Assembly (NCBI RefSeq): GCF_016888165.1
Contig: NZ_JACSWC010000320.1
Span: 1-64,000, forward strand
Direction: 5' to 3'
From: Halomicronema sp. CCY15110
GTDB lineage: Bacteria; Cyanobacteriota; Cyanobacteriia; Phormidesmidales; Phormidesmidaceae
Length of the DNA stretch: 64,000 nucleotides
Shown here: one piece after another, positions 34,543 to 44,746 of the stretch
Position numbering within the stretch: the stretch's first letter is position 1
Layout of the letters: every line of letters begins with the position of its first letter
Position numbers and translations under genes: made by a program
Notes under the pieces: model-generated
Database searches by the model: none
The model's input: the letters and a program-made list of their open reading frames with translations, nothing else
Told to the model about the DNA's origin: nothing

Positions 34543-34795
34543 TGTAAAACATTTGACCTATGCGCTGAGTGTCTATGACTTTGGAGGAAAAACGATATCT
34601 AGTGTCTGTTTATTAAGCTGCTTATCTGGAATCGCTGTATTTAGATCGCCGGAGGTAAATTCACAAAATAGCTTCAAAGGTTTGAAACTTTATTTTTTCT
34701 TCATGTTTGAATGTCGGTTTGTGGGGTGTCGCCCTCGACATAAGGGGGTGAGACCTCATGTTTTAGGGGTGGGACCCCTGGCATCTGTATGGTGT

Positions 34796-34815
34796 CCCAC
34801 CAGCTTTGTGGTGGG
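34796..34815. repeat. Small hairpin upstream of the 34891 gene
   Basis: CCCACCA, loop GCTTTG, TGGTGGG: a perfect 7-bp stem in the leader region of the next gene, followed by a pyrimidine tract. Confidence 0.5.
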
Positions 34816-34890
34816 TCTCTCCCTCTTTTGCCGCCAGCGGAAATAATTTAACTATGAATGGCATCAGTTTCATTGAGGAAGGATGCATCA

Positions 34891-35928
34891 ATGACGGAAG
34901 ATGTCAGAAACAAGGTCAATATTGACGTTTATTTCTCGGATTTTGAGACTCCAGAAGTGGTTATTTCTGAAGTGATTCCTGCTGATAAGGAAAACAAAGT
35001 AAAGCCCAAAGCGTTGCCCCAGGTTGATTTTGCTAGACCGTCCCGCAGAAAAGAGCCTAGTCAGGAAGAATTGAGCGAAGCCGCGCATGAATTGAAGCAG
35101 CTCCGCTGGCAAATAGATGAATTGCCCGGTCACTTAGCAAAACGACGAGTGATGCGAAAAGAGTCCGCACAAACCCTGCGACTACTGCTAGCTGGCATTT
35201 GTGTCTCAATCGTGGCGTCTGGCAGTTTTTTGGCCCTGCGCCAATGCCAAAAAGGACAGATTTGTGAACAGTGGGGACAGTTGACTGACTCGCTTCACGT
35301 TTCGGTGGTGTCGCAATTAACTTCGTTTCGCCAAAGTCTCAATGCTCATAAAGACCTGTTAAGCGACTTCACCATGCTCAGGTTCAGAAAACCTGAGTTG
35401 CTAGAAGAATCCAATCAACTACAAACACCTGCACAATCCCAAGACGTCTTCCAGCGGGGTGTGGACGAGGCCGAAACGGCTATGGCATTACAGCAAGAAG
35501 CCATTGCGCCCGATGAGTGGCAAAAAGTTGTACGCCACTGGGAAATGGCGATCGCTCATCTGGCAGAGGCTTCATCGGATGATCAACTGGCAGCAGAAGC
35601 TCGGGAAAAGAGTGCCGTTTACCAACTCAATCTAGAGTATGCACGCTCTGAGGTGGATTCTTTCCGTGAAGCTGTCAATGCGGCCATGGCAGCGGCTGTG
35701 CTAACTCAATCGGCCAGTACTGAGGCCGATTGGCAGCAAGTGGCACAAACATGGCTAGAAGCGATTTCCTTGATGGACAGCGTGACTCCGGAAAGTGAGC
35801 ACTATCAAATGGCCCAGCGAAAAATACTAGAGTACTCTAGTAACTTGCTCTATGCCCAAACCGAAGTCCTGATGGCAGCCCGAGCTAAAGATCAACTGCT
35901 ATCGGTTCACGGCATCGCTACTGAGTAA
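34891..35928 (+). CDS. Single-pass membrane protein with helical repeats, unknown function
   Basis: 345 residues from the ATG at 34891, which has GAGGAAGG about 8 bases upstream. The N-terminal 90 residues are polar and charged, followed by one membrane helix (about 95-116) and a helical C-terminal part. That part contains two related units: EWQKVVRHWEMAIAHLAEA (near 208-226) and DWQQVAQTWLEAISLMDSV (near 288-306). Such W..V...W..AI repeats recur in cyanobacterial envelope proteins of unknown role. It is convergent with the XRE regulator, the two genes overlapping by 11 bp at their 3' ends. Confidence 0.7.
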   Translation: MTEDVRNKVNIDVYFSDFETPEVVISEVIPADKENKVKPKALPQVDFARPSRRKEPSQEELSEAAHELKQLRWQIDELPGHLAKRRVMRKESAQTLRLLLAGICVSIVASGSFLALRQCQKGQICEQWGQLTDSLHVSVVSQLTSFRQSLNAHKDLLSDFTMLRFRKPELLEESNQLQTPAQSQDVFQRGVDEAETAMALQQEAIAPDEWQKVVRHWEMAIAHLAEASSDDQLAAEAREKSAVYQLNLEYARSEVDSFREAVNAAMAAAVLTQSASTEADWQQVAQTWLEAISLMDSVTPESEHYQMAQRKILEYSSNLLYAQTEVLMAARAKDQLLSVHGIATE

Positions 35929-36559
35929 AGTTATCTAACGCACGATGATATTCTGGCGGAGTTTTTGGCCCAGTCAGTCTCAATACCTCATAGTCTTCTG
36001 CGTCATAGCTTTGACTTTGGTAGTACAGCACCACGGCGGCCAACTCAGGGCGAGTACGCTCCACCGCTGCGTGACATCCAGGATCAGATAGAGTCTTCTG
36101 TTCGACATATGCGATCTGAAGTCCCTCATCAGCATCCGTGACCACGACTGCTCCTGGGCCAAATTGCCGATAGCCTCGCCAAGAAAGTGCCAGTATCTGC
36201 GGGTAAAACTCATTGAGTCGCTGTAAGGCTGCTTTTGACATTGCACTATAGCTATCCACTTGGCTGCGCTCAACTAAAACCGCTGAAGGTGAATCAGAGA
36301 TTGTGCTGCTGGCAGCGTCGACCAACCTGGGGATGGACTGTACCTGTTGGCTGGCAGGTTGCACCCATTCCAGTAACTCTCCTGGCTGACATTGCAACGC
36401 TAAGCAAATTCCCTCGAGTCGATCAGGCGTAAGCCTGGGCATCTCTTCAGATTTCCTGAGTCGATAGACGGAATTCTCCGTAATGTCTAGCGCAAGCGCT
36501 AACTCCTTATTCCGCACTCCTCGAGCTGACATGACTTCGTTCAGCTTCCACAGAATCAC
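35918..36559 (-). CDS. XRE-family HTH transcriptional regulator
   Basis: 213 residues. The N-terminal Cro/C1-type HTH spans about 3-65 (RNKELALALDITENSVYRLR, then MPRLTPDRLEGICLALQC, a PGELLEW ending). The C-terminal 130 residues are not recognised and may sense a signal. It is divergent from the four-gene operon starting at 36745, and the shared 185-bp region carries a sigma70 promoter with an overlapping dyad, so it probably represses that operon. It overlaps the 3' end of the membrane-protein gene by 11 bp. Confidence 0.85.
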   Translation of the reverse strand: MILWKLNEVMSARGVRNKELALALDITENSVYRLRKSEEMPRLTPDRLEGICLALQCQPGELLEWVQPASQQVQSIPRLVDAASSTISDSPSAVLVERSQVDSYSAMSKAALQRLNEFYPQILALSWRGYRQFGPGAVVVTDADEGLQIAYVEQKTLSDPGCHAAVERTRPELAAVVLYYQSQSYDAEDYEVLRLTGPKTPPEYHRALDNFTQ

Positions 36560-36657
36560 GACTTACCCTCCAGGGAAATGGAAGACCCCACTGACATTGC
36601 AATCGTAGTTCAAAGGCGCGTTTATTCGTCACGCGTAGATTTATTTTGCTTCTCGTG

Positions 36658-36686
36658 TTGACTTTTTTCTACGTCTCATGTAGATT
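36658..36686 (+). promoter_or_regulatory. Sigma70-type promoter of the SepF/NACHT operon
   Basis: TTGACT (-35, 36658-36663), a 17-base spacer, then TAGATT (-10, 36681-36686), about 58 bases before the first gene's ATG. It is the best consensus promoter I see in the island. Confidence 0.7.
36669..36683. promoter_or_regulatory. Candidate operator overlapping the -10 element
   Basis: CTACGTCTCATGTAG is an imperfect dyad with CTAC/GTAG ends. A similar half-site, GCGTAGATTTAT, occurs at about 36634-36645 on the side of the divergent regulator. The position between -35 and -10 is ideal for repression by the adjacent XRE protein (inference). Confidence 0.45.
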
Positions 36687-36744
36687 AATGGTGTCGATGT
36701 TCCCCGTGGGTGACATCTAAGAAGTCTCAAAACAGGAACGCCTT

Positions 36745-37311
36745 ATGTTGAAGCAGGTAAAGACTCCACGTCAGTTCATCAACTCCAGTCAACGCCAATC
36801 TGAGCAGACCAAATCAGATCATCGGCAGGGCCTAGTGGCAGACGGCACGCGTTTTCTCAAAGATGGTCACTGGTGGGAGATTGACGCCCATGTGTCTGGT
36901 AAGTATGGTCCCTACTACCGCTGTCACCCTGTTTGTAATATCGAAAGCCGCTTTTTCGCCCATCACGAAATTAGCCAAGCCTTGACTGAGGAAAAGACCA
37001 TGCTGGCATCGAGTATGAAACCGCCTTCGAGAGACGTTCCTACGTGTTCTGGCGATCGTGGGTCTGGCCGGTTGGGGGAATTGGTTCCCATTTCACAGGC
37101 CCACGTTAAGTTAAGCCACACGAAGAGAAAAACTGTGAAAAATGGCAACTCTGAGTGCAAGTTGCTCGCGATCGGCACCCCAGCAGGTATCAAAGCTACG
37201 ATTCAAAATCTTCATAATCTGGGATTTGCCCACACCACTGATTGGAGTTCAGTGCAAAGAAAACCTCGATCTGATGAATTTATGAGCATCTTCACAGGGC
37301 GCAAGGTATAA
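36745..37311 (+). CDS. Conserved cyanobacterial-type protein, unknown function
   Basis: 188 residues in two parts. Residues 30-70 read GTRFLKDGHWWEIDAHVSGKY and continue through a Cys/His pair (CHPVC). The C-terminal 50 residues (LLAIGTPAGIKATIQNLHNLGFAH, then FMSIFTGRKV) resemble short stand-alone cyanobacterial proteins of unknown role. It may be a fusion of two such families, or nucleic-acid binding (weak inference). AGGAA precedes the ATG. First gene of a four-gene operon with gaps of only 23-39 bp. Confidence 0.65.
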   Translation: MLKQVKTPRQFINSSQRQSEQTKSDHRQGLVADGTRFLKDGHWWEIDAHVSGKYGPYYRCHPVCNIESRFFAHHEISQALTEEKTMLASSMKPPSRDVPTCSGDRGSGRLGELVPISQAHVKLSHTKRKTVKNGNSECKLLAIGTPAGIKATIQNLHNLGFAHTTDWSSVQRKPRSDEFMSIFTGRKV

Positions 37312-37346
37312 GCCTGCAGTACTTATTTATGTCAGAAAGGTGAGCC

Positions 37347-37814
37347 ATGAAAAAAGATCCGGCCTTAACTACCGCCATTATGCTGACTCACTATGGGTTC
37401 GACTTGAACGGTGGATCATTACCTTTAGTGATTAAGGAATGGCTAGATTTATATCCCAACAAGTGGGTTCTAGCTGCAGTCGTAGAAGCTTTATATCAAG
37501 GTCGATATAAAGCTAGTTCAGTAAATCGAATCCTTGATAACTGGTGTTCTCGAGGAAAAGCGTTGCCAAACTTTGATCACGACTTTGCGGACTACTTCTG
37601 CAGAAAAATAGTCAAAGCCTTGCTCGCAGAACTTGAACTTTACGAAAACCGCAAGAATGTACCCGAATTAGCCAATCAGCAGCCCGCATCAAGCCATCGA
37701 ACAGCTAGTGATTCTGAGTTAGAGCGAGACTTGAAATTCACCAAGATAACTACTCGAAAGCATTCCCCAAATCCAAATATTGCCGCATGTGCCAAACTTG
37801 TCAGTCAACTTTGA
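37347..37814 (+). CDS. Cyanobacterial hypothetical protein with DnaD-like helical look
   Basis: 155 residues. The core (20-95) reads GGSLPLVIKEWLDLYPNKWV, then AAVVEALYQGRYKASSVNRI and LDNWCSRGKALPNFDHDF. This pattern recurs in small cyanobacterial proteins and resembles DnaD/DnaB-type replication-initiation helices; the resemblance is by eye only. The C-terminal 50 residues are polar and probably disordered. A good ribosome binding site (AGGTGAG) precedes the ATG. Second gene of the XRE-controlled operon. Confidence 0.6.
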   Translation: MKKDPALTTAIMLTHYGFDLNGGSLPLVIKEWLDLYPNKWVLAAVVEALYQGRYKASSVNRILDNWCSRGKALPNFDHDFADYFCRKIVKALLAELELYENRKNVPELANQQPASSHRTASDSELERDLKFTKITTRKHSPNPNIAACAKLVSQL

Positions 37815-37853
37815 CTGATGCCAAGCCTAATCTAATCTACTCAAGGAGGCAGC

Positions 37854-38507
37854 ATGAAAAGGATGATTTTAGGCGTACTAGATGCGCTTGGCTGGTTAGA
37901 ACCAGAGGATAAAGATGCTAACTATAATGATCTTTGGCTCCAAGAAAATGAAGAGATTGTCAGAACGAGTCGGCATCCTAGACTTTCTGAAGAACCGACG
38001 TTTTTTCCTGATAATGATGACCGTGTAAGCCCTCAGGGTAGTTCCATGAGTCAGGTTCCATTCCCTGCTCAGATCGTTGACTTTCAGCGTAACCATCGCA
38101 ATGTCAGCCCTCCACTTCCTAAGCGAACTCAGGCATCCACTATTCCACTGCCGCAAACAAGTTTTAAGAATTTTACTGGTCTGGAAAAACAGCCATGTGA
38201 AGTCGCCATTATTAACCTGACAACCTTCGACGAAGTTGGAAAGGCCCTAAAAGAATTAGGCGAAAGAAAGCTCGTTATCGTCAATTTACTTTGCACGGCA
38301 GTTAGAGAAAAGCAGAGAGTTCTAGATGTCATTTCTGGTGGCACCAGCATTATTGATGGATCTGCTGAGAGAGTGGGCGAAGATACTTTTCTATTTGCCC
38401 CTAACACAATTCGAATCACCAATGAAGAATTAGAGACTGGTGATTTGACCGAACATTATGCAAACGATCTCCCACTTCAAGATCATTTGCTGGTGGAGGC
38501 TTGCTAA
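37854..38507 (+). CDS. SepF-like cell-division protein paralogue
   Basis: 217 residues with the SepF layout. An N-terminal amphipathic helix (MKRMILGVLDALGWLEP) is suited to membrane binding. A disordered linker (20-112) follows, then a SepF core (113-195): CEVAIINLTTFDEVGKALKE, KLVIVNLL and ERVGEDTFLFAPNTIRI. SepF tethers FtsZ to the membrane and is essential for division in cyanobacteria (Cdv2). The core is divergent (for example IISGGTSIIDGSAERVG), and the gene lies in an accessory operon, so I take it as a paralogue and not the housekeeping copy. The start has a strong AAGGAGG. Confidence 0.78.
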   Translation: MKRMILGVLDALGWLEPEDKDANYNDLWLQENEEIVRTSRHPRLSEEPTFFPDNDDRVSPQGSSMSQVPFPAQIVDFQRNHRNVSPPLPKRTQASTIPLPQTSFKNFTGLEKQPCEVAIINLTTFDEVGKALKELGERKLVIVNLLCTAVREKQRVLDVISGGTSIIDGSAERVGEDTFLFAPNTIRITNEELETGDLTEHYANDLPLQDHLLVEAC

Positions 38508-38530
38508 GCCTAGTCCAGTATTTTTAGCTC

Positions 38531-40633
38531 ATGGCAGTGGAGAGTAATAAAGTGTTTACCGCTGAATTGATTTCAAAGCTACTACTAATCTCATTCTCCT
38601 GTGCCTGGGACAACAAAATATGGGAAAAGGTTGACTTAAAAATTCGACAACTTATCTATGAAACCTCCAAGCAATATCAGAACAACTTCAAATCAAGATA
38701 CGGTAAGGTGAGATTGTCTGGAAGCAACACTGAGCGGGAACTGAGTGAGATCTACGTTCCAATTCCTTGCTCAGACTGTCATCATAAGCCCACTGCAGAG
38801 GAAAGTTATCGGTCTAAAGTCTTCAAACCAGAGTTGGCTATTGATGACACAGTCTGCTACAGATCAATTTTTGATCGTGTAAATGAAAATCAGTATCTAA
38901 TCTTAGTTGGAAAAGTCGGTTCAGGTAAGACATTAACCCTCAAATACATTGCTTTAGAAGCATTGAGCCAAGATGAGAACTGTCTTTATATTCACAATAA
39001 GATTCCTGTTTATCTAGATTTGAACAGTCACTTATATTCGGACAGAGAAATTCATGAAATAATTGTTGAAGAATTTGAAATCGCTGGAGTTCCAGATGCT
39101 CACAATTTTGCGGAAACCACTCTCAAGAGGGGAGACTTATTACTGCTGATTGACAGTGTTGATGATTTAAGTCAGTCTCAGCAATCAATTCGCCTAAGTG
39201 AAGTGAGTGCATTAGTAGAGAGATTTCCCAGCAATAGATATATCCTCGCAAGAAAAGAGGAAATTCCTTTCGGAAATTTACTGGGCTTTAATTCTTCTTA
39301 TGTACATCCCTTTGGAGAGTCTGAGATATTATCTTTCATTAACAAATGGTTTGATTGTCAAGATGATTCATTTGGGAAGCTCTTATTGAAAGTTTTTAGG
39401 GAGAGGGCCTTATTTCCGCTTGATTTCTTGAGGAGCCCACTGCTGCTCACAATTACGTGTAGCTCTTTCTCAAAAGCGAATGCGTCGTCTTCGAATGTTT
39501 TAGTGCTCTATGAAAATGCATTAAAAACGCTACTGATTGACTGGTCTAGAGAGAAAGGAATTGACACTTCTGATAATGTTGCCCACCTCAAAGAAGAAAT
39601 TTTGTCGAGACTGGCATTAAAGGCATCACAAAACCTAGACAATGCATCTCTGAAGATAGAGGTTATAGAAACTTTCAGTATTCCAGAAACGCGAAATTTA
39701 GATAGTACTGACTCTACTAATCCGAGTCAACTGCTGCATGAATTTCAATATAAGCATGGCATTTTAGAGCAGAACTCTGATGGCAGCTATCGTTTTGCAT
39801 TTCGAAGTATCCAAGAATATTTGACAGCTTACTCCATTATTTTCTTGAATCATTATTTAAATATCTTTTTGGAGAGTCATATTTCAGATCGTCAATGGAG
39901 AAACATATTTATCCTTGCTGCAGGGATTAAAAACTCGGATTTTTTGATTTCTTCTATGCTCAATCACATGAATTTTTTATTGATGACGCCTCGACTAAGA
40001 AAGTTAGCAAACCGAATTGAGGAAATGACAAGTACCACACAAAATACTGTCAGAGATAGCAGAAAAACAGGATTGATACTTTCTGTGTTGATCGACATCA
40101 TTATCACTTACCAAGATAACTGTAAATTCAGGAAAACTCTATTCTCCTGCAATAGTCAGATCAACAACATTCTCTCGAAAAGACAGAAAATCTCTATTGA
40201 AACCTATACGATAGACCCCAAGCTACTTAGATATTTAGATGAATTGGCTCTGATTAATATCTCAAATAGCCTGGCGAAGAAGCTTTTAAATTCAAATGCT
40301 CTCAAAGACACTGAAAAGATTCAAAAATTCAGTGATAAGCTTGAAAATATTTTGATCTTCTTAAGGGATAAATCAAAACATGAACTCACAGCTCGCCTGA
40401 GCCGTCAAAAAATCTCTGATTATCTTTATCAGTACTGGTTGACTTTACTTGACTTGAAGCCTGGCGATCTTGAATTTGAAACTGAAGACATTGAAGCCTT
40501 GAAAGACTACTTGTATGCGTATGATTTGATCTTCAAGTGTAAAGATTATTCGAGACAAATATCGCCCCAGATAGTCGATAAAATAGGCAAATCTTTTATG
40601 CCAATTAAACACGAATTTAAACCATCACAATAA
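38531..40633 (+). CDS. NACHT-type STAND ATPase
   Basis: 700 residues. The central NTPase has a Walker A motif GKVGSGKT (about 127-134), Walker B LLLLIDSVDDL (about 203-212), the sensor region YILARKEE, FLRSPLLLTITC and the NACHT-associated helical motif FRSIQEYLTAY (about 424). The N-terminal 110 residues and the C-terminal 270 helical residues are not recognised; no LRR, TPR or WD repeats are visible. NACHT proteins are NLR-like switches, and many bacterial ones sense phage and trigger dormancy or death. Fourth gene of the operon, 23 bp after the SepF-like gene. AT-rich compared with the chromosome. Confidence 0.8.
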   Translation: MAVESNKVFTAELISKLLLISFSCAWDNKIWEKVDLKIRQLIYETSKQYQNNFKSRYGKVRLSGSNTERELSEIYVPIPCSDCHHKPTAEESYRSKVFKPELAIDDTVCYRSIFDRVNENQYLILVGKVGSGKTLTLKYIALEALSQDENCLYIHNKIPVYLDLNSHLYSDREIHEIIVEEFEIAGVPDAHNFAETTLKRGDLLLLIDSVDDLSQSQQSIRLSEVSALVERFPSNRYILARKEEIPFGNLLGFNSSYVHPFGESEILSFINKWFDCQDDSFGKLLLKVFRERALFPLDFLRSPLLLTITCSSFSKANASSSNVLVLYENALKTLLIDWSREKGIDTSDNVAHLKEEILSRLALKASQNLDNASLKIEVIETFSIPETRNLDSTDSTNPSQLLHEFQYKHGILEQNSDGSYRFAFRSIQEYLTAYSIIFLNHYLNIFLESHISDRQWRNIFILAAGIKNSDFLISSMLNHMNFLLMTPRLRKLANRIEEMTSTTQNTVRDSRKTGLILSVLIDIIITYQDNCKFRKTLFSCNSQINNILSKRQKISIETYTIDPKLLRYLDELALINISNSLAKKLLNSNALKDTEKIQKFSDKLENILIFLRDKSKHELTARLSRQKISDYLYQYWLTLLDLKPGDLEFETEDIEALKDYLYAYDLIFKCKDYSRQISPQIVDKIGKSFMPIKHEFKPSQ

Positions 40634-40728: not shown

Positions 40729-41649
40729 TTAATACTTAGGGCCAACCGTCAGGTTCAAAATCCTCGATTCACCATTTTCGCTGTGATACTTATTCGCCCA
40801 ATCAAGGAGAAAAACATCTAGTTCTTTATAAGCTTCTTCCTGATCTTCGGGTCTAATTTGCAGCATTTCAAGTGCCCTAAAAACATTTCGACTCTTCTGA
40901 GCCCATAGCCTCATGCTCTTAAAGAAGTCTAATGTATCTCGAATAACTTCTCCAACCCTGGAGCTATATTGATTGGGAGAATAGGTTGTTTTTGCTAACA
41001 AAAAAACGGATTCGTTCGTTTGTTCAAGCTTAACTCTCAGTACCGTCCCAGAACTTAATAAACAGTATTTCATGTGCTCTGCCATCGCATCGCTAAGAAC
41101 AGAGGCTTGATTGTTCACTTTTTCACTTATATAGCAAGAATGCATCTCTTCTAAGACTTCCATAAACTGATGATTGCTGAGCACTAAGGCCGAAGGTGTT
41201 GCCTGGGGCAACATATTTTCAAGATAGGTCAACTCTCTTCTAGTGATCTCGTAGTTCTTAAATCTAGGCCCACTTACGTATGGGTACTTTTTTATCCACA
41301 TATGGGGGAACCCAATCAAATAGCGTGGTTCTTTTGAACCAAATGACTTTAGCTCATCTCCATCTATGATCGCCGATTCGACTTCCCTGACAATTGCTTT
41401 AACTCGCTTTGTCTCAACGTGGTGAATCAGACCAGTCCGGCGCAACTTTCTATCTTGTTCCAGGTATGTAGTGTATATGGCAAGCTTCGCTGCAGTAGTC
41501 GCCGCATCCAAGAAAGAGCCATAGCGATGGCCTGAAAACTTCATCGATGCTACAGCGATATAAAGCAGCAGATGATCTATGTCATCAGACAACACAGATT
41601 CTACAAGCTTGTAATGGCTATTGCCGAGCAACTCATTTATTTTATTCAT
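40729..41649 (-). CDS. Unrecognised 306-residue protein
   Basis: 306 residues, soluble and mostly helical by composition, with charged stretches (KLRRTGLIHHVETKRVKAIV, EVESAIIDGDELKSF). No motif that I recognise. It is convergent with the NACHT gene (95-bp gap) and equally AT-rich. The normal codon use, full-length frame and strong hairpin terminators around it suggest a real gene. It could be part of the NACHT system or an independent cargo gene. Confidence 0.6.
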   Translation of the reverse strand: MNKINELLGNSHYKLVESVLSDDIDHLLLYIAVASMKFSGHRYGSFLDAATTAAKLAIYTTYLEQDRKLRRTGLIHHVETKRVKAIVREVESAIIDGDELKSFGSKEPRYLIGFPHMWIKKYPYVSGPRFKNYEITRRELTYLENMLPQATPSALVLSNHQFMEVLEEMHSCYISEKVNNQASVLSDAMAEHMKYCLLSSGTVLRVKLEQTNESVFLLAKTTYSPNQYSSRVGEVIRDTLDFFKSMRLWAQKSRNVFRALEMLQIRPEDQEEAYKELDVFLLDWANKYHSENGESRILNLTVGPKY

Positions 41650-41823
41650 TCTAAATTTGATTTATTGAAAATTTATTAAACAGGTTTTTGATAAAAAAAT
41701 TATACTCTAAGCTAAGTCGTTGTAGATAAACTCTGCCTAGATATAAGCCTGATGAATTTCGAATCGGCAAAGCAACACTCTTGTTTGATTACGAATCTCT
41801 ATGCGACCACAAAGACACTCGCT

Positions 41824-41882
41824 AAATTGGCCTCTCAAGATCTCAGTCACTATCTGATGATCTTGAGAGGCCAATTTTTAAG
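41824..41882. terminator. Very strong bidirectional hairpin
   Basis: AAATTGGCCTCTCAAGATC (41824-41842) pairs perfectly with its complement at 41859-41877 (19 bp), and the loop adds a further TCAG/CTGA stem. It is followed by TTTAA on the plus side and preceded by A-rich sequence, so it can stop transcripts either way. No plus-strand gene ends nearby, which is odd. The rest of 41650-42252 holds the MITE-like element and the terminator of the gene at 42253. Confidence 0.7.
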
Positions 41883-42020
41883 CTTATTATTTTTCTCTAG
41901 TTTCTATTTCTAAGGTTGGGATGGCGATTATATGTAGAAATGCAATAGTAGACTTTTGGCAAACAACTGTTGATTGTGCCTTGGAAGTGGTAAAAACGTA
42001 TTTAGTGAGTTAAATACTCA

Positions 42021-42151
42021 TGATACAGCTTATCTATTGGAACTACAGCGTTTCTCCGCTGGATGAGGTACAAGTCTAGATCTAAAACTCAAGCGTGACA
42101 AGGACTTCAGGGATTACGTTGTACCTCACGGGCTCAGGAACTGCTGTATCA
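42021..42151. mobile_element. MITE-like foldback element, about 131 bp
   Basis: Ends TGATACAGC (42021-42029) and GCTGTATCA (42143-42151) are perfect inverted repeats. Inside, TGAGGTACAA (42064-42073) and TTGTACCTCA (42119-42128) are a second perfect pair. No ORF is present and no clear target-site duplication is seen. The nested palindromic design is that of a non-autonomous miniature transposon or a structured repeat. Confidence 0.5.
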
Positions 42152-42180
42152 GTTTATAAAATTGATATTTTTGGATAAAA

Positions 42181-42219
42181 ATTCACTTGGGCTATACTAA
42201 AGATATAGCCCAAGTGAAT
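42181..42219 (-). terminator. Rho-independent terminator of the 42253-43191 gene
   Basis: ATTCACTTGGGCTATA (42181-42196), a 7-base loop, and the perfect complement at 42204-42219 (16 bp). On the minus strand the stem is followed by a T-rich run. It begins 33 bp beyond the stop codon. Confidence 0.8.
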
Positions 42220-42252
42220 GATTTTACGTTTGGCCAGAGATTTTTTATTATG

Positions 42253-43191
42253 CTACAGCGTAAAAAATACTCCCGGCTCTGTCAACCCTGACTTTGATCT
42301 GCCAGATCCGCGATTACTGTCATTTAACCGCTTAGCTTGTTGGCCGCTGTTGTGATCTCTCGATGAGTTTGAAGAACTTTGAGGTCGCTTTGTCACCCAG
42401 AAACTGTCCAATTCACCCGTTGATGAAGTCTGCTGATTCGCAGGCTGAGAAGAACGAGCTATTTCCTTTGATTGCGGTTTCAAAGAGGGACTTGAAGCGC
42501 TTGGCTCAATTTCGAGGTCTGTGTCGCTAGTCCTTAAATATATTGTCTGTGTGGGAGAGTCTTCAGTATTCACTTCAGATTCTTGCCCAGATTTTGACTT
42601 CTCATCTGCTGTTGACTCACCAGTTAATCCTTTAGGTGTCTTATTGTTATCGCCTGACAAGGTAACTTCATGTTTTTCATCCTCAAGCAGTTGAGAGAGT
42701 TCTGTCTCGAAGGTGTCTACATCAAGGTTGCTTTCAGTGCATGCTGCTTCTGTCTCTTCTACTTCCTCTGGACTGCTTTCTTTACGCGCGAGCGTCGGTA
42801 CATGACCGTTGGTATGGAATGTATCAGCCTCAACGGTTTCTTGCTCTTGAATAGGATAAACACCGAGCTGCTGCCCATTAGCTGCTAAAACGTGTAACCT
42901 CGAAGTCTCTGTGAGCTTATTGGCAATTTCCAATAAAGGTTCTAGAAGTATTGTTTGAGATGCCGTCAACTTGATATCGCACAGGCATTCCATTGCTTTC
43001 AAGCTAATCCGTAAATCTAACTCAACCGCCTCATCCCAGTCTTCGCAGGGCTCGATGAGGTCGACAACAAAGGTAGATGAACTTTCTTCTAAATCTCCAG
43101 AAAGAATGGTGTATGCCTTGTGATAGCTAGGGTTTACGGTGCAACCACAGGCACTAAGGTTTATACACATCTGACATTGAGATAAGGCCAT
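42253..43191 (-). CDS. Unrecognised acidic protein with N-terminal Cys cluster
   Basis: 312 residues. The N-terminus MALSQCQMCINLSACGC holds four Cys (6, 9, 15, 17), a possible metal or Fe-S site. Residues 20-115 look folded (DLIEPCEDWDEAVELDLRIS). From 116 on the chain is acidic, Ser/Thr/Glu-rich and clearly disordered, ending in a basic Ser/Arg/Gly tail and GVFFTL. I know no such family. It ends at a strong terminator and lies between the MITE-like element and the IS. Confidence 0.6.
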   Translation of the reverse strand: MALSQCQMCINLSACGCTVNPSYHKAYTILSGDLEESSSTFVVDLIEPCEDWDEAVELDLRISLKAMECLCDIKLTASQTILLEPLLEIANKLTETSRLHVLAANGQQLGVYPIQEQETVEADTFHTNGHVPTLARKESSPEEVEETEAACTESNLDVDTFETELSQLLEDEKHEVTLSGDNNKTPKGLTGESTADEKSKSGQESEVNTEDSPTQTIYLRTSDTDLEIEPSASSPSLKPQSKEIARSSQPANQQTSSTGELDSFWVTKRPQSSSNSSRDHNSGQQAKRLNDSNRGSGRSKSGLTEPGVFFTL

Positions 43192-43832: not shown

Positions 43833-44746
43833 GAGGGTGTTTTAAAAGTCGGGCAATGAGTAAAAAAGCTTTCTCAGTGTAGGCTGCGAGTATTGATTTA
43901 CGGAGCCCTGAGAAAGCCAATGGTTAAAGAATATCCCAGCAACCTGAGCCGTGACCAATTTGACTTGTTCAGTGACCTGCCGCCGCCGGCCAAACCTGGG
44001 GGACGACCGCGTACGGTGGATGTCTATGCGGTGATTAATGCCATTCTGTATGTGTTGGTCGAAGAGGTGCGGTGGCGTGCCCTGCCGGGTGACTTTCCCC
44101 ATGGCAGACGGTGTATACGTACTTTCGCAACTGGCGCAAAGATGGCACCTGGCAACACATTCATGACCGGATGCGCGAATGGTATCGCATCGAGCAAGGT
44201 CGGCAGACGAGCCCGTCGGAAGCCGTTATTGATAGTCAAAGTGTCAAGAGCGCCGCTGGGGTAAACGATGCCGTCGGCTACGATGCCGGGAAACAGATTA
44301 AAGGACGGAAGCGCTTCTTGGCGGTCGAGACCCTGGGCTTGGTGATGGCGGTATTCGTCACGGCCGCGAGTACCCCGGAACGGGATGGGGCAAAAACCTT
44401 ATTGCAGCGGGTCACAGCCTTGGAGCCGCGTAGTATTCAACGCCTAGTGACAATTTGGGCGGACGGGGGCTTTAGGGGCGAGAATTTCTTGCGATGGGTG
44501 ATGGATACCTGTCGTTGGGTCGTGCCGGTGATGTTGCGTCCGAAGCAGACGAAAGGCTTTCAGGTGCTAAAAAAGCGGTGGGTGGTGGAGCGCACCTTTG
44601 GCTGGTTGATGCATTGTCGACGCCTAGTCCGCGATTATGAGCAGTTGCCAGAGACTTCGGAGACCTTCATCTACCTCGCCATGATCCGCATCATGGTCAG
44701 GCGCTTGGCATAAAATTTGACCCGCCAAAACTTTTAAAACACCCTC
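43833..44746 (+). mobile_element. IS5-family (IS427-like) insertion sequence
   Basis: 914 bp. The 17-bp perfect terminal inverted repeats are GAGGGTGTTTTAAAAGT (43833-43849) and ACTTTTAAAACACCCTC (44730-44746). They are flanked by TA at 43831-43832 and 44747-44748, consistent with a 2-bp target duplication. The length and two overlapping transposase frames fit the IS427 group. The ends are intact, so insertion is recent or the element is still mobile. Confidence 0.88.
43920..44713 (+). CDS. IS5-family DDE transposase in two overlapping frames
   Basis: Frame 1 starts at 43920 (MVKEYPSNLSRDQFDLFSDL) and covers the N-terminal helix-turn-helix part up to about LPGDFP. The rest continues in the -1 frame (ORF 44111-44713: VYTYFRNWRKDGTWQHIHD). 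The DDE residues lie in VIDSQSVKSA, WADGGFRG and VERTFGWL. The switch falls near TTTCCCC at 44094-44100. IS427-group elements commonly make a fused transposase by -1 frameshifting, so this need not be a mutation. Confidence 0.85.

Follow-up and report, generated by a model that had tools for sequence, protein, structure and literature searches.

Gene content and conservation of the locus

The window analysed here is a 64,000-nucleotide stretch of Halomicronema sp. CCY15110 DNA, in which four co-directional genes encode an RGSGR protein (A188), a DnaD-like protein, a SepF-like protein and a NACHT ATPase, separated by intergenic gaps of 35, 39 and 23 bp, while an XRE-type regulator is encoded divergently (Table 1). 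An ORF check reproduced the strands and coordinates given for these genes in a preliminary description of this DNA, and the divergent arrangement is both real and conserved. Co-occurrence of the four operon genes, the check proposed in that description, was also found, with all four present in 12 of 13 loci and only the NACHT gene missing from the remaining one (G001). The four genes form a real operon, but an incomplete unit, as the neighbouring genes at 34858-35928 (a membrane protein) and 40729-43191 (a HetR paralogue and the Cys-rich protein g312) belong to the same set.

Table 1. Features of the cluster in window coordinates
Feature	Position	Strand	Basis
Array of HetR-type boxes upstream of membrane gene	34724..34823		GGGN5CCC enrichment
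HetR-type box GGGTGTCGCCC	34724		Array upstream of membrane gene
HetR-type box GGGTGAGACCT	34746		Array upstream of membrane gene
HetR-type box GGGTGGGACCC	34767		Array upstream of membrane gene
HetR-type box GGGTCTCTCCC	34813		Array upstream of membrane gene
Membrane-protein gene, 356 aa	34858..35928	+	Homologue in 13/13 loci
XRE/Cro-type regulator, 213 aa	35918..36559	-	HTH_26 1.8e-16; alignment
Putative distal, degenerate operator copy	36622..36640		Second-copy spacing in most loci
Predicted promoter TTGACT (36658)-17 bp-TAGATT (36681)	36658..36686	+	Sequence inspection and comparison
Putative operator palindrome/dyad TTCTACGTCTCATGTAGAT in promoter spacer	36667-36685		Conserved across loci
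A188, RGSGR protein, 188 aa	36745..37311	+	RG[ST]GR in 13/13 homologues
DnaD-like protein, 155 aa	37347..37814	+	PF07261 0.008, below cut-off; alignment
SepF-like protein, 217 aa	37854..38507	+	PF04472 9.8e-15; SepF structures 5.5e-21
NACHT STAND ATPase, 700 aa, NLR-like architecture	38531..40633	+	PF05729 9.6e-8; NLRC4-like model
HetR paralogue, 306 aa, convergent with operon	40729..41649	-	PF03574 1.2e-46; HetR_C (PF18460) 2e-16
g312, second RGSGR protein, 312 aa, Cys-rich N terminus	42253..43191	-	RG[ST]GR in 8/8 homologues

Together these genes make up a conserved module of 7-10 genes that is patchily distributed, occurring in 11 of 65 family genomes and in two outside the family. Full-length XRE is found in the same 11 family genomes as the short DnaD-like protein. 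Cluster-type HetR is present in nine of these 11 and in none of the 54 other family genomes; none lies near the cluster in G052, and none was seen in G009, whose contig ends there. The cluster is complete in G461 and rearranged in the distant G553, where the A188, SepF, DnaD, membrane, NACHT and HetR genes all run in one direction, with 16 bp between the end of NACHT and the start of HetR. Pairwise distances of six module proteins correlate (r 0.85-0.99), and these sequence comparisons show a gene set that travels together. Short XREs of Nostocales (HTH 71-76% identical) resembled members but were rejected, as several lie beside TnsB/TnsC/TniQ- and MerR-like transposon-type genes with no A188, SepF, DnaD or HetR alongside. 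Loci L199-L204, which have NACHT matches without the cluster, were likewise rejected. None of the papers covered by the literature searches, which did not include the 2018 paper on PatX, connects this gene set with HetR or SepF, although prior mention is possible.

A putative double operator and an array of HetR-type boxes

A promoter with an overlapping dyad had been described upstream of the operon, and comparison across loci bore this out: the 17-bp spacer contains the dyad CTACN7GTAG. In the 251 kb of cluster loci scanned, all 15 occurrences of this dyad fall between the XRE and A188 genes (eleven loci), and it is present again in the same region of L197 and L198. A second copy, usually weaker, lies 44-45 bp upstream of the proximal one in most loci. 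The comparison shows that this intergenic region contains a conserved, predicted double operator with one copy between the -35 and -10 elements. The XRE protein combines its HTH_26 domain (Pfam) with a conserved C-terminal domain of no recognised type, and it may repress the operon until a signal lifts repression, probably via this C-terminal domain.

HetR binds GGGN5CCC and is released from DNA by PatS6 (PMC4649674). Candidate boxes of this hetP type were shown to cluster upstream of the module's membrane gene, where GGGN5CCC is present in nine of 11 loci compared with 10% of 165 control genes, and where six of the eight exact GGGTNNNACCC occurrences in 280 kb are located. No HetR box was found before the HetR paralogue or in the XRE/A188 promoter region, and one precedes g312 in one of seven loci. 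The membrane protein has a single predicted transmembrane segment (residues 109-127) and a C terminus of repeated helical units containing W, and its gene lies within the operon in G553. The HetR paralogue would bind the boxes upstream of this gene.

A HetR paralogue and two families of RG(S/T)GR proteins

The protein encoded at 40729-41649 has the Peptidase_S48 and HetR_C hood domains of HetR (Pfam) and matches HetR structures (9.7e-71). Its score against the NCBIfam equivalog PRK13245 is 265.6 bits, below the cut-off of 489, so it was assigned as a paralogue and not as an orthologue of the heterocyst regulator. Canonical patX-hetR is found at another site of the same genome (C202), with a PatX-like ORF of 116 aa and four motifs upstream of hetR, and the cluster therefore appears to be a second HetR/RGSGR circuit.

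Contact residues were compared with those reported for HetR with DNA and PatS6 (PMC4649674; R223 from PMC7476756), among which R223, E253, D270 and D278 form the core of the peptide pocket and E254 and D256 contact the hexapeptide N terminus. All of the DNA contacts (R62, H69, E71, K73, R74 and K76) are kept in the window paralogue; across the cluster HetRs, R62, H69, E71 and R74 are present in 11 of 11 and K73 is K or R. Of the PatS6 contacts, the window protein keeps R223, E253 and D270, with D278 replaced by N, E254 by M and D256 by Q, while E253, D270 and R223 are found in all 11 cluster HetRs and D278 in ten. The alignments show that the predicted DNA-contact residues and most of those expected to hold the two PatS arginines are retained.

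RG[ST]GR is a peptide that inhibits HetR. Within 72,598 residues of neighbouring ORFs it has 19 matches, all in the A188 and Cys-rich g312 families, every homologue of which carries it (Table 1), and it is also present in members of these families from G461 and G553. In A188 it occupies residues 105-109 (window 37057-37071), within a linker that joins two folded domains and is predicted to be disordered; a fold search with A188 gave no significant match in the PDB. In g312 it occupies residues 294-298. The g312 gene lies on the opposite strand from the operon in the window and switches flank between genomes.

Like the patX-hetR circuit (with patS and hetN) of filamentous cyanobacteria, the cluster pairs a HetR-family regulator that keeps its DNA-contact and most of its core peptide-pocket residues with RG(S/T)GR proteins, and has hetP-type boxes nearby. 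Unlike patX-hetR, its HetR is a paralogue, linked to XRE, DnaD-like, SepF-like and NACHT genes, and its RGSGR motifs sit in larger proteins (188 and 312 aa) with no signal peptide evident by inspection; neither is a short exported precursor adjoining canonical hetR, as PatX is. Whole or cleaved, these proteins may bind the hood domain of the HetR paralogue and so control how active it is, in the way that PatS, HetN and PatX act on HetR.

SepF-like, DnaD-like and NACHT proteins

The earlier assignments of the SepF-like and NACHT proteins were both confirmed. As in SepF, the core of the SepF-like protein scores above the Pfam cut-off (55 bits versus 27), and its family profile matches solved SepF structures, placing it in their fold family. 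It differs in being a divergent second copy, 33% identical over the core to the genome's canonical SepF (G000:C245) and sharing 21-31% identity with the equivalent proteins of other clusters. A candidate N-terminal amphipathic helix is present in the window protein, with no clear one in the homologues of several related genomes. The DnaD-like protein, which has close relatives in ten other genomes of the family, scores 16.3 bits with DnaB_2/DnaD against a gathering threshold of 22 and is called DnaD-like only.

The NACHT domain scores 32.5 bits against a Pfam cut-off of 26.7 and is accompanied by NCH2 (1.8e-5), a Walker A motif (GKVGSGKT) and, by alignment, an acidic Walker B. As in bacterial NACHT/NLR-related proteins, the ATPase is joined to a C-terminal helical region, and the model matches NLRC4 (E 5.7e-11) and resembles NLRC4/NOD2. 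It differs from them in that no toxic effector domain was recognised and its context is HetR/SepF rather than defence. A pattern scan of the genome contigs for the NACHT protein found nothing, because this protein diverges fast. The Anabaena PCC 7120 gene alr2242, a HetR ChIP target that is derepressed without hetR (PMC4192349), offers a parallel in being a NACHT-family gene influenced by HetR, although no such cluster has been reported in that strain.

A proposed HetR-gated module acting on division and replication

We lean, by a little, towards the locus being a second HetR/RG(S/T)GR regulatory module, repressed by XRE, gated by HetR and RGSGR, and acting on division and replication with an NLR-like ATPase, apart from patX-hetR. 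Its regulatory anatomy is supported by the comparisons above; the cellular output (division, replication, necridia) is inferred from homology. The preliminary description was right about an XRE-controlled SepF-like/DnaD-like/NACHT operon but did not recognise the HetR paralogue or the two RG[ST]GR proteins, whose presence suggests regulation of development or cell fate rather than defence. Its proposal that sensing brings division to a halt is plausible.

Phage defence is possible but unsupported. In an abortive-infection system, phage sensing would fall to the NACHT protein, with the SepF-like and DnaD-like proteins as effectors that stop division or replication, XRE silencing the operon and HetR co-opted as a regulator. 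An NLR-like NACHT model, a partial 54-bit PADLOC match to the candidate defence family PDC-S60, XRE control and patchy distribution, both common in defence loci, and the enrichment of conflict systems in multicellular bacteria (PMC7159879) would fit, but PADLOC gave no further family hit, and no other defence genes were recognised beside the operon. There are no phage relatives, viral-contig matches being confined to the HTH at no more than 42% identity; no effector domain was recognised, and NACHT alone says little, as 224 of 390 genomes from the class have related genes, many of these lying outside any such cluster. The HetR paralogue and the pair of conserved RGSGR proteins also go unexplained, and we consider this explanation unlikely.

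Much less probable is a mobile-element accessory module, in which the DnaD-like and SepF-like proteins would manage an integrated or former element with XRE as its repressor. DnaD-like and XRE genes, patchy occurrence and the presence of a related short XRE on plasmids and transposons elsewhere among cyanobacteria are in keeping with this, but the conserved set has no integrase, relaxase or partition ATPase, its genes are co-inherited, cluster HetR has no match in 72,556 plasmids, the XRE plasmid matches span only the HTH, and the cluster is chromosomal in G039, lying at 746-757 kb. Chance proximity of an XRE-NACHT operon to unrelated HetR-paralogue and RGSGR-protein genes, as the opposite strand of HetR and g312 in the window and the variable flank of g312 might suggest, is the least credible, given that A188, the operon's first protein, itself bears the invariant motif, that HetR follows NACHT so closely in G553 and that within the family cluster HetR is confined to cluster genomes.

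In the favoured HetR-gated module, the SepF-like protein might compete with or modify the FtsZ-SepF ring, the DnaD-like protein act at replication and the NACHT ATPase provide a switch with a threshold. Single cells within the filament would then be arrested or committed, and necridia or patterned fragmentation might result. Necridia form on loss of RG(S/T)GR inhibitors, and the ancestral role of HetR has been conjectured to be non-random fragmentation (PMC7761841), while the functions of HetR and RGSGR inhibitors in heterocyst-less filamentous cyanobacteria have been called 'a mystery' (PMC11298460). With division, replication and NLR-like genes beside its HetR paralogue and its two new RG(S/T)GR families, the cluster suggests a concrete, testable output.

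A more specific and distinctly tentative proposal is a second, PatX-independent morphogen circuit of non-heterocystous filaments, in which the HetR paralogue, gated by non-exported RG(S/T)GR proteins, would drive the NLR-like ATPase, along with dedicated SepF-like and DnaD-like proteins, so that selected cells are arrested or killed. If true, this would give bacteria an equivalent of NLR cell death tied to development. The cluster would also correct the view of PatX as the sole ancient RG(S/T)GR partner of HetR, and it might help to account for PatX effects in BL0902 that depend little on the deleted hetR. The Halomicronema genome has one NifH match of ~365 bits, the same score as in nif-less BL0902, which was read as ChlL; it therefore gives no sign of nitrogen fixation. 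The carrier G039 appears to be Leptolyngbya sp. BL0902, in which gene deletion works and for which RNA-seq data (PRJNA1087288) from the wild type and from hetR, patX and double mutants exist.

Conservation of the cluster

The preliminary description named an XRE gene divergent from a four-gene operon encoding A188 (188 aa) and DnaD-like, SepF-like and NACHT proteins; all five genes were found as stated, with operon gaps of 35, 39 and 23 bp. Pfam analysis of these proteins gave matches to HTH_26, SepF and NACHT and a sub-threshold DnaB_2/DnaD match, while A188 matched nothing in Pfam, NCBIfam or PADLOC. In a search of 65 Phormidesmidaceae genomes, the DnaD-like protein had close relatives in ten others, and around these the layout was repeated: a membrane-protein gene, XRE, A188, DnaD-like, SepF-like and NACHT, mostly with a convergent HetR-family gene. 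The four-gene set therefore recurs as proposed, except in G001, which has no NACHT gene, but the unit had been drawn too small, as the flanking genes are conserved with it. Other exceptions are G052, without HetR, and G009, whose contig stops at the HetR position.

Among the 65 genomes, full-length XRE is confined to these eleven (the source genome and the ten others). The cluster-type HetR occurs in 9 of the 11 and in none of the remaining 54, most of which have one or two other HetRs. Outside the family, G461 carries the whole cluster (L197) and G553, from a different family, a rearranged version (L198) in which A188, SepF-like, DnaD-like, membrane-protein, NACHT and HetR genes are co-directional, XRE is divergent and HetR starts 16 bp past NACHT. 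Pairwise distances of the six cluster proteins were correlated between genomes (r 0.85-0.99; p ≤ 0.001 in permutation tests), as expected for co-inherited parts, with shared species history also contributing.

Several neighbourhoods additionally have genes for a sigma-70-type factor and for a ~250-aa protein with no family assignment. A conserved 236-289-aa protein of no Pfam family, often with a sigma-70 factor after it, lies between NACHT (or SepF) and HetR in some cluster genomes and is absent from the window. IS4/5-type transposase ORFs lie near the gene for g312, a 312-aa Cys-rich protein adjoining HetR.

Coordinates of features in the window and in compared loci
Feature	Location	Strand
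Membrane-protein gene	34858-35928	+
XRE gene	35918-36559	-
XRE/A188 intergenic promoter	36658-36686	
A188 gene	36745-37311	+
Operon	36745-40633	+
HetR paralogue (306 aa)	40729-41649	-
g312 gene	42253-43191	-
IS4/5-type transposase ORFs	43893-44713	
236-289-aa protein	L039:6706-7473; L037:10849-11718; L036:7994-8704	
G022 tandem duplication	L041:10675-11575	
PatX-like ORF	L133:755-1105	
LEVFD-type HetR paralogue	G000:C60:155-1036 (L134)	
Nostocales short XREs	L049-L056, around 10001	
Nostocales short-XRE locus L054	L054:773-961	

A HetR paralogue beside RG(S/T)GR proteins

In heterocyst formers, HetR is inhibited by RG(S/T)GR peptides of PatS, HetN and PatX (PMC7761841, PMC12756182). The motif RG[ST]GR is present in 13/13 A188 homologues, despite a mere 22-42% identity to the window protein, and in 8/8 g312 homologues; all 19 occurrences in 72,598 residues (ORFs of the window and cluster loci) fall in these two families. 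The A188 model has two well-predicted domains joined by a disordered linker (residues 98-132) that contains RGSGR. By inspection, neither A188 nor g312 has an evident signal peptide, unlike PatX, so both more likely act intracellularly and are not exported.

The HetR paralogue can be aligned over its full length with solved structures of HetR (E 9.7e-71). In the DNA-binding domain, all 11 cluster HetRs keep R62, H69, E71 and R74 and have either K or R in place of K73; R223, E253 and D270 are likewise kept in all 11 and D278 in 10 (N in the window protein). In the HetR-PatS6 complex, E253, D270 and D278 bind two arginines and E254 and D256 the N-terminal amino group (PMC4649674). E254 and D256 are changed in the paralogue, so the core pentapeptide pocket appears largely kept and the hexapeptide-specific part lost.

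The source genome has two further HetR genes. Directly upstream of the canonical one is a PatX-like ORF (116 aa, four RG(S/T)GR motifs), and the cluster circuit is therefore an additional one. The other, with motif LEVFD, is of a type that most family genomes have as well as canonical HetR; no RGSGR ORF was found in the flanks examined. Leptolyngbya sp. BL0902 has three hetR-like ORFs without heterocysts or a nif cluster (PMC11298460). In the literature searched, neither HetR nor SepF is linked to this gene set; the nearest statement is that, of the RG(S/T)GR proteins, PatX alone has an association with HetR that predates heterocysts (PMC7761841).

Control sites

Control-site patterns were picked after inspection, so the following statistics are descriptive. 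The XRE/A188 intergenic promoter, TTGACT-17 bp-TAGATT, contains the palindrome TTCTACGTCTCATGTAGAT within its spacer. All 15 occurrences of CTACN7GTAG in 251 kb fall in this intergenic region at the eleven loci, where another copy, often a weaker one, is found 44-45 bp upstream; L197 and L198 also have the motif there. It is the expected candidate for an XRE operator overlapping the promoter. In G022, the XRE promoter and the 5' end of XRE are duplicated in tandem (~223 bp).

At 9/11 loci, the 400 bp preceding the membrane gene contain the HetR recognition core GGGN5CCC; the figure for 165 control genes is 10%. Six of the eight exact hetP-type sites, GGGTNNNACCC, in 280 kb are also upstream of this gene; a seventh, in L198, lies between SepF-like and the point where the DnaD-membrane-NACHT-HetR genes probably start. 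The window has four HetR-type boxes there (three with the full core), spaced by about two or four helical turns. Upstream of the HetR paralogue, HetR boxes are absent.

Possible functions

The SepF-like protein, the second SepF of the genome (canonical SepF on C245), conserves the core fold; its N-terminal helix is membrane-anchor-like in some members and missing from others. The predicted NACHT structure (pLDDT 74; ten-sequence alignment) resembles NLRC4, NAIP5 and NOD2, with no effector domain recognised, and the membrane gene product of the window has one predicted TM segment. The preliminary reading, phage sensing leading to a division block, is possible: a phage-defence system would fit the NACHT gene, XRE control and patchy distribution, but searches including PADLOC, plasmids and viral contigs found no phage, plasmid or defence-island evidence. 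In the proposed HetR/RGSGR circuit, XRE would most likely hold the operon off; upon induction, RGSGR proteins would modulate the HetR paralogue, and the SepF-like, DnaD-like and NACHT proteins would alter division, replication or survival of single cells. By analogy, necridium formation would be an attractive output, because Anabaena forms necridia when RG(S/T)GR inhibitors are lost, fragmentation is the conjectured ancestral role of HetR (PMC7761841) and an Anabaena NACHT gene is among HetR targets (PMC4192349).

Look-alike XRE loci

Nostocales encode short XREs (84-86 aa) that are ~71-76% identical in the HTH, several of them in a type V-K CAST-like setting beside TnsB/TnsC/TniQ-like and MerR-like genes. 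One of these short-XRE loci, L054, encodes a protein that has the A188 C-terminal domain but no RGSGR, and similar CTACG/CGTAG motifs are present there.
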